DNA from: Candidatus Bathyarchaeota archaeon
GTDB lineage: Archaea > Thermoproteota > Bathyarchaeia > Bathyarchaeales > Bathyarchaeaceae
Assembly: GCA_029882515.1 (NCBI GenBank)
Contig: JAOUKN010000012.1
Coordinates: 1 to 35,991 of the forward strand
Length of the DNA: 35,991 bases
Direction of reading: 5' to 3'
Below are positions 13,483-20,299 of the stretch, in pieces. Made by a program: the position numbers and the translations under genes. Each line of letters starts with the position of its first letter. Position 1 is the stretch's first letter. A model generated the notes under the pieces. It was not told the DNA's origin. It searched no databases and was given only the letters and a program-made list of their open reading frames with translations.

Positions 13483-15030
13483 CTATTCCAACGATTCTCC
13501 GGCTCTGCGAATTTTTCGAAGTTTTTCATCCATCTCAGCAAGGGAACTCGATTGAGGAAGGTTATAATCAACTTTTTCTGAATCTGCCTCCAGATATTCT
13601 GGATAGTGAATAATCTTTACTGGAACCGCAAAGCGAATTTTAGGCTCAGAAATAAGCAATGCCTCGCCAACATCCAGCATCTTTATCTCAGTGTCGCTGT
13701 ACTCAAGATACGGCGTATTTTCCGTAACGTAAGTTCTGTCGCGGCGTAACTCTGTCTTCATGATGACTTTAGTCCAAAGCTCGGCAAAGACATTGAGATT
13801 TATTCTTGAAGGCCGTGGTGTCACAGCATTCAGTCCAACACGGTATTTACGATATGTCAGGGCGATGTCAGAGAATATGGTTTTGGGTAGAGATGGATCG
13901 AGGAATTCGTGAGCCTCTTCTAAGGTTATTAGCACTGTAGGAAGCTTTTTCCATTTCTCGAAATTACCTTCCCACATACGTTTATAGTGAAGAGAGACAC
14001 TGGAGGCCGTGAGGCATGTTACATGGTGTTGTTCCTCGAAACTGATTCCCGAAATATCGATCAGACAGGTGATGCCTTTGCTTACATTCTGAACCACATC
14101 GTCAACGAAACTATAGTCAGAGGGTGGGAAAAGGTCTAGAGAGAGACTTGAAAGTTTTAGCATAAGGGCATCTATAACAGCCTTGCTCTTGTAGTCCGTG
14201 AGCCCGGCCACTCCTTTGTAGCCTTCTCTAACATAGGCTTCGCGCGACTGTTCTATCCAAGTTCTCCCTAACTTTTTGTAAAGTTTTTGAGCAAGCCTTA
14301 CTTGATGCTGCGTGATGTCGGGAAAAAGTGTTCGAAGTTTATAGGGGTGGACTGTATAAAGACCCACAAGCATCTTCTTCTCTCTAGCAGAGTAGTAACG
14401 AACTCTGGTGTGAAAGAGTTGATGATCGCGCAAGCCCCGTTGAGGAGTTATTCCCCTCCCGTCCAGAAGCTGTCCAGCAAAGTCAAAGATTAGACCCACA
14501 GTACGTGGACTTGAATCTATGATCCGCGCATTAAGCATTAATTCACAATTCGTTTTTCCAGAACCTGTCATCCCGAACATGCCCATCATCAGAGGTATAG
14601 CCTCAACACTTATGCCCACAGTACCAAGCACTTGTTCGCCAGAGCGCAAACGTGCTATCTCTAAATCCCCACCAAGTCTCAAAACCGAATAATCTTCTTG
14701 GCTCGTTGTGTGTACTTTGTCCATGTAATCTGGATTAAAAGTTGGAGAACGAATCCTCTTACCACCTTTTTCAAGAAAGAGAATTGCATCAACATGCCTG
14801 TAGCTGGAGTATGGTCCAAAGGATTCCTTTCCTTCTGCTTCACGGAGTTGTTCGTCCGTTTTCAGCGTGGAGGAACTCCCAGCGTCCACGATGCGTGCAT
14901 AGAAGCTTTTGCTGGCTGAATCTATCCTAACTATCTGACCAAATGAGAGGTTGGTTCCTCTATTGAGGAAGAAGGAAACCTTATCTCCTTTTACTTCACG
15001 GATAAACCCTACAGGTTCAGACATGTTCAA
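13483..15030 (-). CDS. herA: HerA-family DNA translocase ATPase
   Basis: 515 aa; N-terminal HAS-barrel-like, Walker A GMTGSGKT, Walker B TVLITLEEAHEF. Confidence 0.88.
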   Translation of the reverse strand: MNMSEPVGFIREVKGDKVSFFLNRGTNLSFGQIVRIDSASKSFYARIVDAGSSSTLKTDEQLREAEGKESFGPYSSYRHVDAILFLEKGGKRIRSPTFNPDYMDKVHTTSQEDYSVLRLGGDLEIARLRSGEQVLGTVGISVEAIPLMMGMFGMTGSGKTNCELMLNARIIDSSPRTVGLIFDFAGQLLDGRGITPQRGLRDHQLFHTRVRYYSAREKKMLVGLYTVHPYKLRTLFPDITQHQVRLAQKLYKKLGRTWIEQSREAYVREGYKGVAGLTDYKSKAVIDALMLKLSSLSLDLFPPSDYSFVDDVVQNVSKGITCLIDISGISFEEQHHVTCLTASSVSLHYKRMWEGNFEKWKKLPTVLITLEEAHEFLDPSLPKTIFSDIALTYRKYRVGLNAVTPRPSRINLNVFAELWTKVIMKTELRRDRTYVTENTPYLEYSDTEIKMLDVGEALLISEPKIRFAVPVKIIHYPEYLEADSEKVDYNLPQSSSLAEMDEKLRKIRRAGESLE

Positions 15031-16030
15031 TCCACTCCCACTGAAACGGATGTTTTACGCCATGCAGTTCATCTGGGAAATTACATGACACTTCTTCCAT
15101 GCGAAGTACATCCAACAAATCAGCGGTAGCCAGCGTTTCCTCAACTTGATCATGATAGTGAAGAAGTTTTGAGTCGGACGGCCCAGAAAAATCGTGAGCA
15201 AGCCAAAGGGTGACAGGATATCCGAGGCACCTTGGGTCTTCTGAGATGGAAATGAGCGGGGAAAGTAGTTCGTTTATTTCATACTTAGTTAGGTAGTCCA
15301 TTATATCACACCGAAAAACGCGTGGACTTTCTTCATATAATTTCACAACAGAAATATCACCATACAAAGTTTGATCTTTGTTTGCCTTCCTAATGGGATG
15401 GTAAACCCACACCCCATAGGGTGAAAGCATGGTCGTAGTAGCCACAAAATCCCTACCCTTATCATCGTGAAGCAAAGGAGAGTTCTTGCTTATAGCTAAA
15501 AGGTTGATCCCCTCTTTTTTGCATTCTTCGTATAGTGACACGCGGAATTTCCTTTCTCCACCAAAGTAAGCTCCACCGTCTAATAGAAGGTAATTACTAC
15601 GACCATTGGTATGGTCGTAGTAAGGCGTTGTAATCCTTCCACGAAGAAGCTTTAGACCCATTTGGCTTTCTAACTCAATTCTGAAGTCCTTTAAGAAGTT
15701 ACTACGACCATACGCGTCTCCAATTACAGTGCACATTCTTTCTTCATAGCCCCAGTCCACGTTGCGTCCTTCCACAGAAGCATACGCCGCTCGCATGAGG
15801 TAAACGCCCCAGTTATTTGCTCTTTTTAATGTCCTTGTTGAGCAGTCTACAGCCATGAAATGTACGTCGCAGTTTTTCATTTTTTTCAAAGGCTTTATTT
15901 TAGACTTATCAGGGGTAATTGCTATTACAGGTTCTTTCCTAACTTCATGGAAGCCTATTGCGCGCCCTTTGTTAACGTAGTCACCAAGTTTTTTCTTCAT
16001 CTCTTCTAGGTCTTCGATTATTTTTCTCAT
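15017..16030 (-). CDS. nurA: NurA-domain nuclease
   Basis: 337 aa; MAVDCSTRTLKRANNWGVYLMRAAYASV, LLLDGGAYFGG, LLAISKNS, LAHDFSG; overlaps herA by 14 bp. Confidence 0.75.
   Translation of the reverse strand: MRKIIEDLEEMKKKLGDYVNKGRAIGFHEVRKEPVIAITPDKSKIKPLKKMKNCDVHFMAVDCSTRTLKRANNWGVYLMRAAYASVEGRNVDWGYEERMCTVIGDAYGRSNFLKDFRIELESQMGLKLLRGRITTPYYDHTNGRSNYLLLDGGAYFGGERKFRVSLYEECKKEGINLLAISKNSPLLHDDKGRDFVATTTMLSPYGVWVYHPIRKANKDQTLYGDISVVKLYEESPRVFRCDIMDYLTKYEINELLSPLISISEDPRCLGYPVTLWLAHDFSGPSDSKLLHYHDQVEETLATADLLDVLRMEEVSCNFPDELHGVKHPFQWEWIEHV
15429..15711. repeat. four copies of TTACTACGACCAT (both orientations) inside nurA
   Basis: ATGGTCGTAGTA 15429-15440; TTACTACGACCAT 15594-15606; ATGGTCGTAGTAA 15611-15623; TTACTACGACCAT 15699-15711. 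The middle pair forms a perfect 13-bp inverted repeat with TGGT loop. Confidence 0.95.
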
Positions 16031-16106: not shown

Positions 16107-16553
16107 TTATTTATTATCTTTCATAAAACTTAATGTGCTCCGCGATATCTCAGTCACCATTCTGTACCGCAGATGTTGAGACATCTTATTTCGGATCACA
16201 AAACCACGATCAGCCATTCTGGATAGATAAGTTGAAACCGTGCTTAGGCTAATTGGTTCCTTCAACTTCTCTTCATACAAAGTTTGAACGTCACGAGATA
16301 AAAACCAAACAACTGGAAAATTCTCCTTAACAATATAACAAACTTTGTCAAACTTTGACAGTTCAGAATAGCCTTGACCTAACTCAGAATTGGCTCTTGG
16401 CATGCCTCCCAACAACTCAACAATATCGAGTAGGCGGAGGGCCTTGTCTCTTGTTACATGTCCCTGAAACGTCACAGTATAACGGTTTCCATCTCCATCA
16501 AAGACTTCCACCCGCACTTTTCTAGCAGGCATCCCTTTGCACCAATCAACCAA
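16107..16553 (-). CDS. winged-helix domain protein
   Basis: 148 aa; C-terminal EEKLKEPISLSTVSTYLSRMADRGFVIRNKMSQHLRYRM resembles wHTH with wing. Confidence 0.65.
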   Translation of the reverse strand: MVDWCKGMPARKVRVEVFDGDGNRYTVTFQGHVTRDKALRLLDIVELLGGMPRANSELGQGYSELSKFDKVCYIVKENFPVVWFLSRDVQTLYEEKLKEPISLSTVSTYLSRMADRGFVIRNKMSQHLRYRMVTEISRSTLSFMKDNK

Positions 16554-16730
16554 ATCCTTTACAACTTAACACTTCACACGTTATAGAAGTTGCGGTTAAG
16601 AGTTGAGATGAAAAAACGCCAAAAACTGTTTAAACAGCAAAAATAAGCCAAAAATTCACTTTGTCAAGTTCACAGCCTTCACGTGGAACACCAAAGAAGC
16701 AAAAGAGAATAGAAATGGACTGCTATCAGT

Positions 16731-16760
16731 TTTCCACAGGAAGGTGAGGGGTCTCCCCTC
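16731..16760 (+). promoter_or_regulatory. ORB-like origin recognition box A
   Basis: TTTCCACAGGAAGGTGAGGGGTCTCCCCTC. Confidence 0.65.
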
Positions 16761-16961
16761 TACAAAAAAGAGCTTTATAATAAGCAATAAACAAGAAATG
16801 AAGGCGAAATACTTCCGCTAATAAGATTAATTTCACTATCACTTCACTAAAATGTTAAAACACAACAGAGAAAACAATTCGATTCTAACTATCCAACGCT
16901 TGTAGGGGTATGCTATGAAAAGTCAATTAATTAATATACCCCACGGATATACAAATACACC

Positions 16962-16984
16962 AACCCCTTGATTTCCACTGCACC
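16962..16984 (-). promoter_or_regulatory. ORB-like origin recognition box B (inverted)
   Basis: Reverse complement reads TGGTGCAGTGGAAATCAAGGGGTT. Confidence 0.7.
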
Positions 16985-17144
16985 ATTTTTATCCAGAAAT
17001 AAGACGAGGTAACCTTTGAAAAGTGTTTTTTGTTAACTCTAAAGTCTTTTATAAAAATTATTAAAATAAGAAATTTAACGTAAAGACATGGGATGCTATT
17101 CTTTTTAATAAAAGAATACTCTTCACCCTCTTTTTCAGAAGCTA

Positions 17145-17175
17145 TCTCCAAGGGAAACAAAGGGGTGGACCCCTT
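17145..17175 (+). promoter_or_regulatory. ORB-like origin recognition box C
   Basis: TCTCCAAGGGAAACAAAGGGGTGGACCCCTT. Confidence 0.75.
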
Positions 17176-17276
17176 CTTCAGGTTTTTCTGAGTTGTGTTT
17201 AGTTTTTTGTATGAGAGTTCTTATTTTTCAATGGAGAGTTCTACGTTTCTTCTGTAATTCTACAGAGGAAACAGAC

Positions 17277-18554
17277 ATGACTAGTCATACTAACCACACA
17301 GTGTTAGACAATGTTTTCCAAAGATTTTTGAATGGCCCAAGCGTTTTTAAGGATCGGGATGTTCTACGTCACGACTATGTTCCAGAAAAATTACCGCATC
17401 GAGAGCAGCAGATCCGTTGTTTTGGAGAAATAGTTGCTCCAGTTCTACGCGGGTCACGGTGCTCAAACGTATTCATCTATGGAAAAACTGGGACTGGGAA
17501 AACTGCGGTTGTAAAATTTGTGTTGAACACACTTGTCCAAAGGGCTCGACAGTTTGGTGCTATTGTGAAGATTTGTTACGTTAATTGCCGACTAATCGGC
17601 ACAGAATATCGGATTCTTTCTAATTTATGCGCGGCACTTGGCGCAAAAGTACCCTTTACTGGTCTGGCGGTTGGAGAAGTGTATGAGAGATTTAAAAAAA
17701 CCCTGAACCAAAGAAAAATCCTCTTCATTGCTGTTTTAGATGAAATTGATGCCCTTATACACGCTAGAGGTGATGTTCTACTGTATGAGTTAACAAGAAT
17801 AAATGGGTGTCTTTGCTCTAGTAAAACTTCTATCGTAGGAATCTCTAATGATCTCCGGTTTAAAGAATTCTTAGATCCAAGAGTTCTCAGCTCACTGAGT
17901 GAAGAAGAGATAGTTTTTAGGCCTTACGATGCAGCTGAACTACGAGACATTCTTTCAGATCGTGCTTGGCTCGCGTTTCAAAAGGGGGCGTTGCTTGAAG
18001 GGTCAATAGATCTATGTGCGGCACTTGCTGCAGCAGAGCACGGTGATGCGAGACGTGCGTTAGATTTACTCCGGGTGGCTGGTGAAGTCGCTGAACGAAA
18101 GGGAGAGTCTCTAGTGACTGAGGGTCATATACGGCAAGCCGAGAGAAGGATTGAGCATGATCAGACTGTGGAAGCTTTGAAGAATCTTCCTCTTCACTCA
18201 AAACTTGTCTTGTGTAGTGTTTACCTTCTAGGCAAGGTGAAGATCAGTTCTGCTATTACTGGTGATATCTATGAGATCTACCGTGAACTCTGCGATCTTT
18301 CAGGGCTCTCACCTTTGACACAAAGGCGTGTGAGTAGTTTGGTTAACGAATTGGACGTAATAGGACTGTTGAATACTCGGGTCGTCAGTATGGGGCGTTA
18401 TGGACGTACGAGAAAAACTCGTCTAAGCGTTGCTAGGGGGCTTATTAGGGAAGTTTTTACGTCTGATGGTAGACTCAGGGGTCTTGTGGACCATGCACCA
18501 AAATGTTTTTCAACAATTTCGAGTAGTCGGGGCCGAAGACGGTTGCCCCTCTAA
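17277..18554 (+). CDS. cdc6: Orc1/Cdc6 replication initiator
   Basis: AAA+ Walker A GKTGTGKT, Walker B FIAVLDEIDAL, sensor SIVGISND, ALDLLRVAGEVAER, C-terminal winged helix; likely start MTSHTN at 17277. Confidence 0.95.
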   Translation: MTSHTNHTVLDNVFQRFLNGPSVFKDRDVLRHDYVPEKLPHREQQIRCFGEIVAPVLRGSRCSNVFIYGKTGTGKTAVVKFVLNTLVQRARQFGAIVKICYVNCRLIGTEYRILSNLCAALGAKVPFTGLAVGEVYERFKKTLNQRKILFIAVLDEIDALIHARGDVLLYELTRINGCLCSSKTSIVGISNDLRFKEFLDPRVLSSLSEEEIVFRPYDAAELRDILSDRAWLAFQKGALLEGSIDLCAALAAAEHGDARRALDLLRVAGEVAERKGESLVTEGHIRQAERRIEHDQTVEALKNLPLHSKLVLCSVYLLGKVKISSAITGDIYEIYRELCDLSGLSPLTQRRVSSLVNELDVIGLLNTRVVSMGRYGRTRKTRLSVARGLIREVFTSDGRLRGLVDHAPKCFSTISSSRGRRRLPL

Positions 18555-18630: not shown

Positions 18631-18759
18631 TTGGAAAAAACAACGGTTGTCAGTTTGGATGTCACTGAAAATGGTTCAAAAAAATGCTTGATACGCGCGC
18701 ATGAACCTATTCGGGCTACTAAACTCATTGAACGAGGGCTTACAGAAAAGGTGACGTAA
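18631..18759 (+). CDS. possible small protein (42 aa)
   Basis: Open frame from TTG: (M)EKTTVVSLDVTENGSKKCLIRAHEPIRATKLIERGLTEKVT; no Shine-Dalgarno; overlaps 3' end of DP1. Confidence 0.25.
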   Translation: MEKTTVVSLDVTENGSKKCLIRAHEPIRATKLIERGLTEKVT

Positions 18760-20299
18760 AATCCAGTGATGTAACTTGTAGCGTTTGGAGGTTTACGACT
18801 GGTACAATTCCTGGAGTAGGTAGAAGACCCATACGCTTTTGATATTCTGTTTGTTGTTGCCACGCACCTGAATTTACAACTAGGACTCCGCGGTATACAC
18901 CATGGCTTTGCACATGCACATGCCCGGCTTGGAAGACATCTGGTATTCTTTCTATTACTAAGTAATCTTGTAGTTCAGGGGCTATGAGAGTTCTCTCTCC
19001 ATAAATGGGCGCTAAGTGTCTACCTTGCAAAAGCAAATTCATCGCCTTACCAGGGGTGTGAAAACTCATGTTTGGAGCAACTGCTATAACATCATCTAAA
19101 CTTCGCCCATGATACAGAAGAAGCTCCACTCCATGAAGACTCACAATGCTCGGATTTCCACACGAAAACACCTTTCTAGTTTTCAGTAAAGGTTCTATAT
19201 ACTCTTTCGGTATGGCAGGTTGGGGCAACGCCTTTCTAGAAGCGTCATGGTTTCCTGGAATAATTAGTAACTCTATGTAGTCAGGGATCTGCTCGATGAA
19301 ACTCGCCACTTCTTGATATTGCTTATAAATGTCTTTGATCGCCAGTTCTTCTATCTGTTTTGGATAAACACCTATCCCATCTACGAGATCTCCAGCAACA
19401 ATAACATATTTGACGTGACTTGCAACGTACTTCATTTTTTCGTTTCCTACTTTCCCGTTTAGCCAAAGCAGAAAACGCTTGAATGCCTCTTGCATGAACT
19501 TTTTGCTTCCGACATGGAGATCTGAAATGAGGGTTGCGTAAACCGGCATTGAGGCTCTCCGTGGCTTCCTTTTTGGAATATCGGGTAAAATGAAGTCCTC
19601 AGCGATGAGTAAATCGTTTTTTCCTTTGAAACCAATTACACATACGACTTGGTCAAGTAACAATATTTGTGCTTTTTCTACTAGACTTGGATTTTTCGTT
19701 GGCGATGCCAATACGGTGATGTTTGCGTCAAGATCTTCAACTTGTAGAAAAATCTTCTGTTTAGATTCGCGTTTCTCTGTGATCATTCCGATGATCTTGA
19801 CTTTTGAGTTGACAGGGGCTTTTCGTGCTTCTGAGATAGACATTGCATCCTTTGCATCCATTCTTTGTCTTAGAATCTTCCGTAACTTTCTGAAGCGATC
19901 TTGGAAATATTCTACGTATTCTTCAATAGCACCAGTTGCACAGATCTTGTCTGTTGGGTCATCAATTACTTTCATATCCGCGTCAATGTCTTTCGCATAA
20001 GCATGAAAAGCTTTTTTCGTCTCTATCATAGGTGGTGAAGATAGAGCTAATGGAGGTTCTTTCTCCTCAAGGAGAGTTTCTTTTGCCACCTCCTCCAAAA
20101 GGTCTTTGCTTACGAACAAGGGTTTTTCAGGGGTATTCTTCATTTTTTTGATGATTTCTTCTGTCAACTTGAGAATGTCTTCTGTTTGAGGTAGTGTATG
20201 CAAAAAACTGAAGGCGTCAGTGTCTAGTTGGTATCCTGCCGCTATGATGGAAGAGACCGCCTTTTGTAATAGCTCGTTCATGTCCGAGTATTTCTCCAC
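18740..20299 (-). CDS. polB: DNA polymerase II (PolD) small subunit DP1
   Basis: 519 aa; OB fold plus calcineurin-like phosphodiesterase motifs ISDLHVG, AGDLVDG, PGNHDASRKA, GHVHVQSHG. Confidence 0.95.
   Translation of the reverse strand: MEKYSDMNELLQKAVSSIIAAGYQLDTDAFSFLHTLPQTEDILKLTEEIIKKMKNTPEKPLFVSKDLLEEVAKETLLEEKEPPLALSSPPMIETKKAFHAYAKDIDADMKVIDDPTDKICATGAIEEYVEYFQDRFRKLRKILRQRMDAKDAMSISEARKAPVNSKVKIIGMITEKRESKQKIFLQVEDLDANITVLASPTKNPSLVEKAQILLLDQVVCVIGFKGKNDLLIAEDFILPDIPKRKPRRASMPVYATLISDLHVGSKKFMQEAFKRFLLWLNGKVGNEKMKYVASHVKYVIVAGDLVDGIGVYPKQIEELAIKDIYKQYQEVASFIEQIPDYIELLIIPGNHDASRKALPQPAIPKEYIEPLLKTRKVFSCGNPSIVSLHGVELLLYHGRSLDDVIAVAPNMSFHTPGKAMNLLLQGRHLAPIYGERTLIAPELQDYLVIERIPDVFQAGHVHVQSHGVYRGVLVVNSGAWQQQTEYQKRMGLLPTPGIVPVVNLQTLQVTSLDFTSPFL

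Follow-up and report, generated by a model that had tools for sequence, protein, structure and literature searches.

Introduction

In the published layout of an oriC1-type origin, two inverted ORBs surround an A/T-rich tract and a third ORB lies outside them (PMC12141716). Sulfolobus/Saccharolobus oriC1 carries these as ORB1–ORB3 beside a gene of the Orc1-1 type (PMC12141716), and its ORBs combine a dyad with a G-string (PMC4164010). In S. islandicus, loss of either inner ORB abolishes oriC1 activity, and the role proposed for ORB-bound Orc1 is to guide MCM onto the A/T-rich DNA that separates the inner ORBs (PMC12141716). Initiators read the ORB with arginines of the winged helix, which are missing from non-initiator Orc1 proteins (PMC9738581). 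Inverted G-string ORBs around an A/T-rich tract are also found in Haloarcula hispanica oriC1, beside cdc6 and with extra G-rich repeats nearby (PMC3936714). In the oriC island of Thermococcales/Pyrococcus, ORB repeats are intergenic and cdc6 adjoins the gene for the PolD small subunit, DP1; linkage of orc1 and DP1 beside oriC is known from other archaea (PMC2643942).

Our search of the open-access literature found no paper describing a Bathyarchaeia origin. Here we analyse a 35,991-nucleotide stretch of DNA (the window) from a Candidatus Bathyarchaeota archaeon, for which an earlier note had proposed a candidate origin upstream of orc1/cdc6. That proposal is supported by the exclusivity of the ORB sites, by their conservation, and by a switch in AT skew in a relative. 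We consider it very likely that positions 16554–17276 are the primary chromosomal origin of this genome, of the oriC1 type, and that it works by the mechanism proposed below. The origin is ordinary in kind and, in the literature searched, apparently new for Bathyarchaeia, with the addition of a lineage-specific conserved module.

Results and Discussion

Three ORBs upstream of an Orc1-1-type gene

The window is contig C141 of an archaeal assembly of 2.2 Mb in 230 contigs. The 723-bp intergenic region (16554–17276) has a minus-strand winged-helix gene on its left and plus-strand orc1/cdc6 on its right. Within it are three ORBs: the outer site, ORB A (CCACAGGAAGGTGAGGGGT; 16734–16752, plus strand), the inverted ORB B (GCAGTGGAAATCAAGGGGT; 16963–16981, minus strand), and ORB C (CCAAGGGAAACAAAGGGGT; 17148–17166, plus strand). 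All three were identified by string match, a genome-wide pattern search and comparison with relatives, supplemented by gap-free alignment for A and by the DoriC motif for B and C. Every string quoted in the earlier note, for the ORB-like sites and for the palindromes discussed below, is found in the window. Site B is on the minus strand as described, one base away from the reported end at 16962, and the shared core is real and one N longer than had been written (CANNGGAANNNNAGGGGT).

Compared to the independently derived DoriC 'common' ORB motif, TCCA[CG]T[TG]GAAA[TC][GA]AAGGGGT (Table 1 of PMC4164010), sites B and C each match at 18 of 20 positions and site A at 15. B and C are the only sites within the 36-kb window with two or fewer mismatches to this motif (Markov expectation 0.0). 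Site A by itself is unremarkable, as 2.9 sites with its five mismatches are expected per window; we accept it as an ORB because of its position and its conservation in relatives. The region therefore resembles an oriC1-type origin in having several ORB elements (TCCA..GAAA plus a GGGGT G-string). The presence of three full G-string ORBs differs from Thermococcales/Pyrococcus, where one ORB is accompanied by several mini-ORBs.

The array shares with Sulfolobus/Saccharolobus oriC1 a pair of ORBs inverted around A/T-rich DNA and a third ORB beyond them. The DNA separating B from C (16983–17146) is 73% A+T, rising to 82% in its core (17049–17120), and the G-strings of B and C are both directed away from it. 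The earlier note had suggested that B and C flank an unwinding element here, and the tract does hold the A/T maximum of the window: only two other 72-mers exceed the core in A+T, both of them also between B and C. Relatives are arranged alike, and we regard the interval as a putative duplex unwinding element. It differs in two respects from Sulfolobus/Saccharolobus oriC1. The B–C distance is about 186 bp, compared to 130 bp for the ORB3-DUE-ORB2 region. Furthermore, nothing between B and C scores above 8/11 (three mismatches, in the A/T-rich tract) against the ucm of Sulfolobales and Desulfurococcales origins, using a ucm sequence deduced from published oligonucleotides (ATTATACAAAC).

The gene beside the sites (17277–18554, plus strand) encodes a 425-aa initiator of the Orc1-1 group. 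It scores 513 bits with NCBIfam NF001625 (cut-off 501), also matches TIGR02928 and the Pfam families Cdc6_C and Cdc6_lid, and is 65–74% identical to orthologues from Candidatus Bathyarchaeota and Bathyarchaeum. Its best solved relatives, with which it aligns over the full length, are 2qby_A (Cdc6 homolog 1 from Sulfolobus; E 1.5e-112) and 2v1u (Aeropyrum ORC1). Its winged helix contains QRRVS and GRYGRTR, which align with QRRVS and GRYGKT of 2qby_A. A second Cdc6 is encoded elsewhere in the same genome (contig C41; L005:956-2137), is closest to 1fnn, and has a counterpart in most relatives. In place of the ORB-reading arginines it has HTQVW and GQRGKT, and it has no ORB core nearby, because C141 alone contains the exact core. 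Judged from its sequence, the second Cdc6 is probably a non-initiator comparable to Sulfolobus Orc1-2.

The surrounding genes include both subunits of DNA polymerase D. The gene for DP1 (18740–20299, minus strand; NF003118 above cut-off) keeps its position in relatives, recalling the cdc6-PolD linkage of Thermococcales/Pyrococcus, and the gene for the large subunit, DP2, is on the same contig (4179–7616, minus strand). Unlike in Thermococcales/Pyrococcus, RFC genes were not identified beside the origin here. To the left of the winged-helix gene, a HerA-like ATPase (13483–15030, minus strand) is preceded, in the position of NurA, by a gene for a conserved 337-aa protein (15017–16030, minus strand) with no Pfam or NCBIfam match at E 0.001. 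Relatives largely keep the order NurA-like, winged helix, origin, orc1, DP1, PhoU-like.

Conservation and exclusivity of the ORB array

All three occurrences of the exact core CANNGGAANNNNAGGGGT in the 2.2-Mb assembly fall in this region, and the reversed-pattern control gives no match. As the pattern was built from the three sites themselves, the relatives are the fair test. Whole-genome searches of 16 good genomes placed exact ORB matches at this locus only in 15. The ORB cluster is thus confined to the origin region in the window's own genome (3/3 matches) and in 15/16 relatives. The earlier note had identified equal matches elsewhere in the genome as evidence against an origin; their absence favours the origin reading.

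Conservation among relatives, another check proposed in that note, proved very strong. Of 29 relatives, 25 have the three-site array upstream of their own orc1 orthologue, in the orientation plus, minus, plus. Of the four exceptions, one has a run of N in the assembly (L014) and one has a contig that begins 340 bp before the gene (L027). Another has B and C next to a non-homologous left flank (L017), and the last has A and B with a C that is one base shorter (L033). B–C spacing is mostly 184–190 bp with a further cluster at 211–214 bp, and A–B spacing varies between 141 and 249 bp. In more distant loci from Njordarchaeota and Thermoplasmatota (L050, L051), no ORB-like site with two or fewer mismatches was found upstream of orc1.

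It should also be noted that one genome, G009, has extra exact ORB matches away from orc1 (C9:2365, C12:4780, C48:2701 and C105:22242) and a further match with one mismatch (C12:5433). Two of the extra matches resemble this genome's own site A. They may mark a second origin or belong to a mobile replicon.

AT skew in a relative and the proposed mechanism

Fragmentation of the window's own assembly precludes a skew plot. Using 60 stretches of 20 kb sampled from a single-contig relative (G012; 2,152,501 bp), we found that the best split in AT skew is at 1,757,875, compared to 1,748,321 for orc1, which is within one 36-kb step (permutation P 0.0002). The detrended cumulative AT-skew curve has its peak at 1.81 Mb and its minimum, roughly opposite, at 0.59 Mb. 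The earlier note had proposed a GC-skew plot as a check; in this relative the switch at orc1, an extremum of the disparity curve, is seen in AT skew, and GC skew in the same genome gave no signal (P 0.41). Across orc1 within the window, AT skew changes from +0.056 to -0.002 and GC skew from -0.10 to +0.08, a change that gene orientation could also cause. Two further genomes presented as single-contig, G018 and G059, are in fact made up of contigs stitched together with N (each had N in 28 of its sampled stretches), and neither their gene order nor their skew can be relied on.

The skew result also bears on whether the ORBs serve mainly as an autoregulatory operator through which Orc1 represses its own gene, with replication starting elsewhere or without a fixed origin. 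The sites do lie directly upstream of orc1, and a recognisable ORB/cdc6 locus can persist in archaea that do not need it, such as Thermococcus kodakarensis, which can lose cdc6 and the ORB region without phenotype (PMC5663688). However, B and C are 110–315 bp from the orc1 start codon and stand in inverted orientation on either side of the window's A/T maximum, and AT skew in G012 switches at the orc1 locus. We therefore regard a mainly autoregulatory role as very unlikely.

For the origin reading, comparison with S. islandicus oriC1 suggests a mechanism in which Orc1 on B and C loads MCM between them. By analogy with the archaea studied so far, Orc1 from the downstream gene would bind the inverted ORBs B and C around the A/T-rich tract. 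In its ATP-bound form it would recruit MCM hexamers onto 16983–17146, where the DNA would unwind, and PolD, with DP1 encoded in the adjacent gene and DP2 on the same contig, would carry out extension. ORB A would be an outer site within a rigid nucleoprotein module built on TTCACA repeats. The module would also take in the promoter of the winged-helix gene, and it may modulate firing or link firing with expression.

An origin here brings an uncultured and widespread class of archaea within the range of oriC1-type initiation. Its location gives a reference point for re-phasing closed genomes and for estimating growth from metagenomic read coverage.

A rigid conserved block around the outer ORB

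Gapped alignment of the intergenic region revealed conserved blocks in addition to the ORBs. When 25 sequences were anchored on ORB A without gaps, 104 columns between -176 and +113 were above the maximum of a jittered control, defining an 'A block' of about 290 bp (16559–16848). The same treatment of the flanks of B and C returned essentially the ORB alone (23 columns each above 0.8 bit), with flanks that drift freely. Mean pairwise identity of the A block is only 47%, so its conservation is not due to recent copying. Conservation within the block has a period of 9.7 bp (P about 0.016 by block shuffling, for a test picked after viewing the data).

The block contains pairs of TTCACA repeats, a hexamer that is 11 times over-represented in the region (84 vs 7.7); among the 25 sequences, 57 pairs were observed compared to 6.2 expected. 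In the window, pair 1 (16669–16682, plus strand) has its two copies 9 bp apart and lies 66 bp before ORB A, an offset of -65 or -66 in 24/25 sequences. Pair 2, a TTCAC pair (16832–16847, plus strand), has copies 11 bp apart, a distance that is mostly 10 bp across the 25 sequences. It lies 97 bp after ORB A, counted from the first base of ORB A (+96 to +98 in 23/25 sequences). Among 151 genomes from the class, 8 match a strict composite of pair 1 and ORB A and none matches the control pattern; all eight belong to the window's family or to one neighbouring family. L048 shows a looser version of the arrangement. We also considered the TTCACA pair alone as an origin-specific signal and rejected it, as its genome-wide counts are just modestly above those of the reversed control. 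Specificity resides only in the arrangement around ORB A.

The left end of the block carries a conserved element, TTCACANGTTATAGA..GGTGAA, which in the window reads TTCACANGTTATAGANNTTNNGGTGAA (16573–16599). It includes a TATA-like core, GTTATAGA (TCTATAAC on the minus strand), whose position suggests a promoter for the divergent winged-helix gene (16107–16553, minus strand). This gene encodes 148 aa, or 141 aa from the ATG at 16532, and 26 of the 29 relatives have it next to the origin. Its product has a MecI-like winged helix: in a structural model of moderate confidence (mean pLDDT 75), the best Foldseek E is 2.4e-3 and MecI is among the top matches. The winged-helix protein is a candidate binder of TTCACA.

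These features can be accommodated in two ways, and we are about evenly divided on whether the A block is the operator of the divergent gene or a nucleoprotein module that also affects the origin. The TTCACA repeats and A block could be promoter and operator of the winged-helix gene only, with ORB A inside by positional accident. The TATA-like GTTATAGA at a promoter-like distance, and the MecI-like character and usual proximity of the gene, are consistent with this explanation, to which we give slightly less than an even chance. However, distances hold to within about 1 bp on either side of ORB A, and this fixed spacing takes in ORB A and continues about 270 bp past the promoter end. A simple operator would have no need to extend beyond an ORB. 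A more tentative proposal, which we hold to be possible and somewhat doubtful, is that the outer ORB of Bathyarchaeia origins centres a helically phased nucleoprotein module of about 290 bp, with the TTCACA pairs at set distances to either side and conservation repeating at close to 9.7 bp. Here a further protein, perhaps the winged-helix protein, would bind together with Orc1 and gate firing. If this proposal is true, the module is a form of origin control for which no counterpart has been described in other archaea. The rigid TTCACA arrangement around the outer ORB is a difference from Sulfolobus/Saccharolobus oriC1, and in the open-access literature searched we found no paper linking TTCACA with an archaeal replication origin and nothing described that matches the A block. 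The TTCACA/ORB-A module is a sharp, testable lead on how archaeal origins may be regulated, a subject on which little is understood beyond haloarchaea and Sulfolobales.

Palindromes and other elements of the intergenic region

Two of the three ORBs in the window carry a GGGGT-spacer-CCCC palindrome, GAGGGG-TCT-CCCCTC after site A (16746–16760) and AAGGGGT-GG-ACCCCTT after site C (17160–17175), which the earlier note had read as an extension of the ORB. A functional extension would have a parallel in Haloarcula hispanica, where oriC1 is enhanced by a G-rich inverted repeat adjacent to its ORBs (PMC3936714). Among relatives, however, such a palindrome is present at a single site (site C of L034). 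The haloarchaeal element also consists of a single repeat whose arms are divided between the two inverted ORBs, rather than a palindrome after each ORB (PMC3936714). No split G-rich inverted repeat of this kind lies inside two ORBs here, the G-string is not extended, and the palindromes follow individual ORBs and are not conserved. Thus, we consider a functional role as an ORB extension highly improbable. A further palindrome, CTGTTTAAACAG, is present at 16626–16637 as had been reported and is likewise not conserved in relatives.

An Rfam scan of the region found no RNA above threshold. The best candidate for a non-coding RNA, RAGATH-30, scored 19.6 bits compared to the 59.5 needed (E 0.4) and was rejected. 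Between ORB C and the orc1 start (17167–17276), many relatives share a conserved T-rich stretch, TTTTTTGTANGAGAGTTNTTAT, which is possibly the promoter or leader of orc1.
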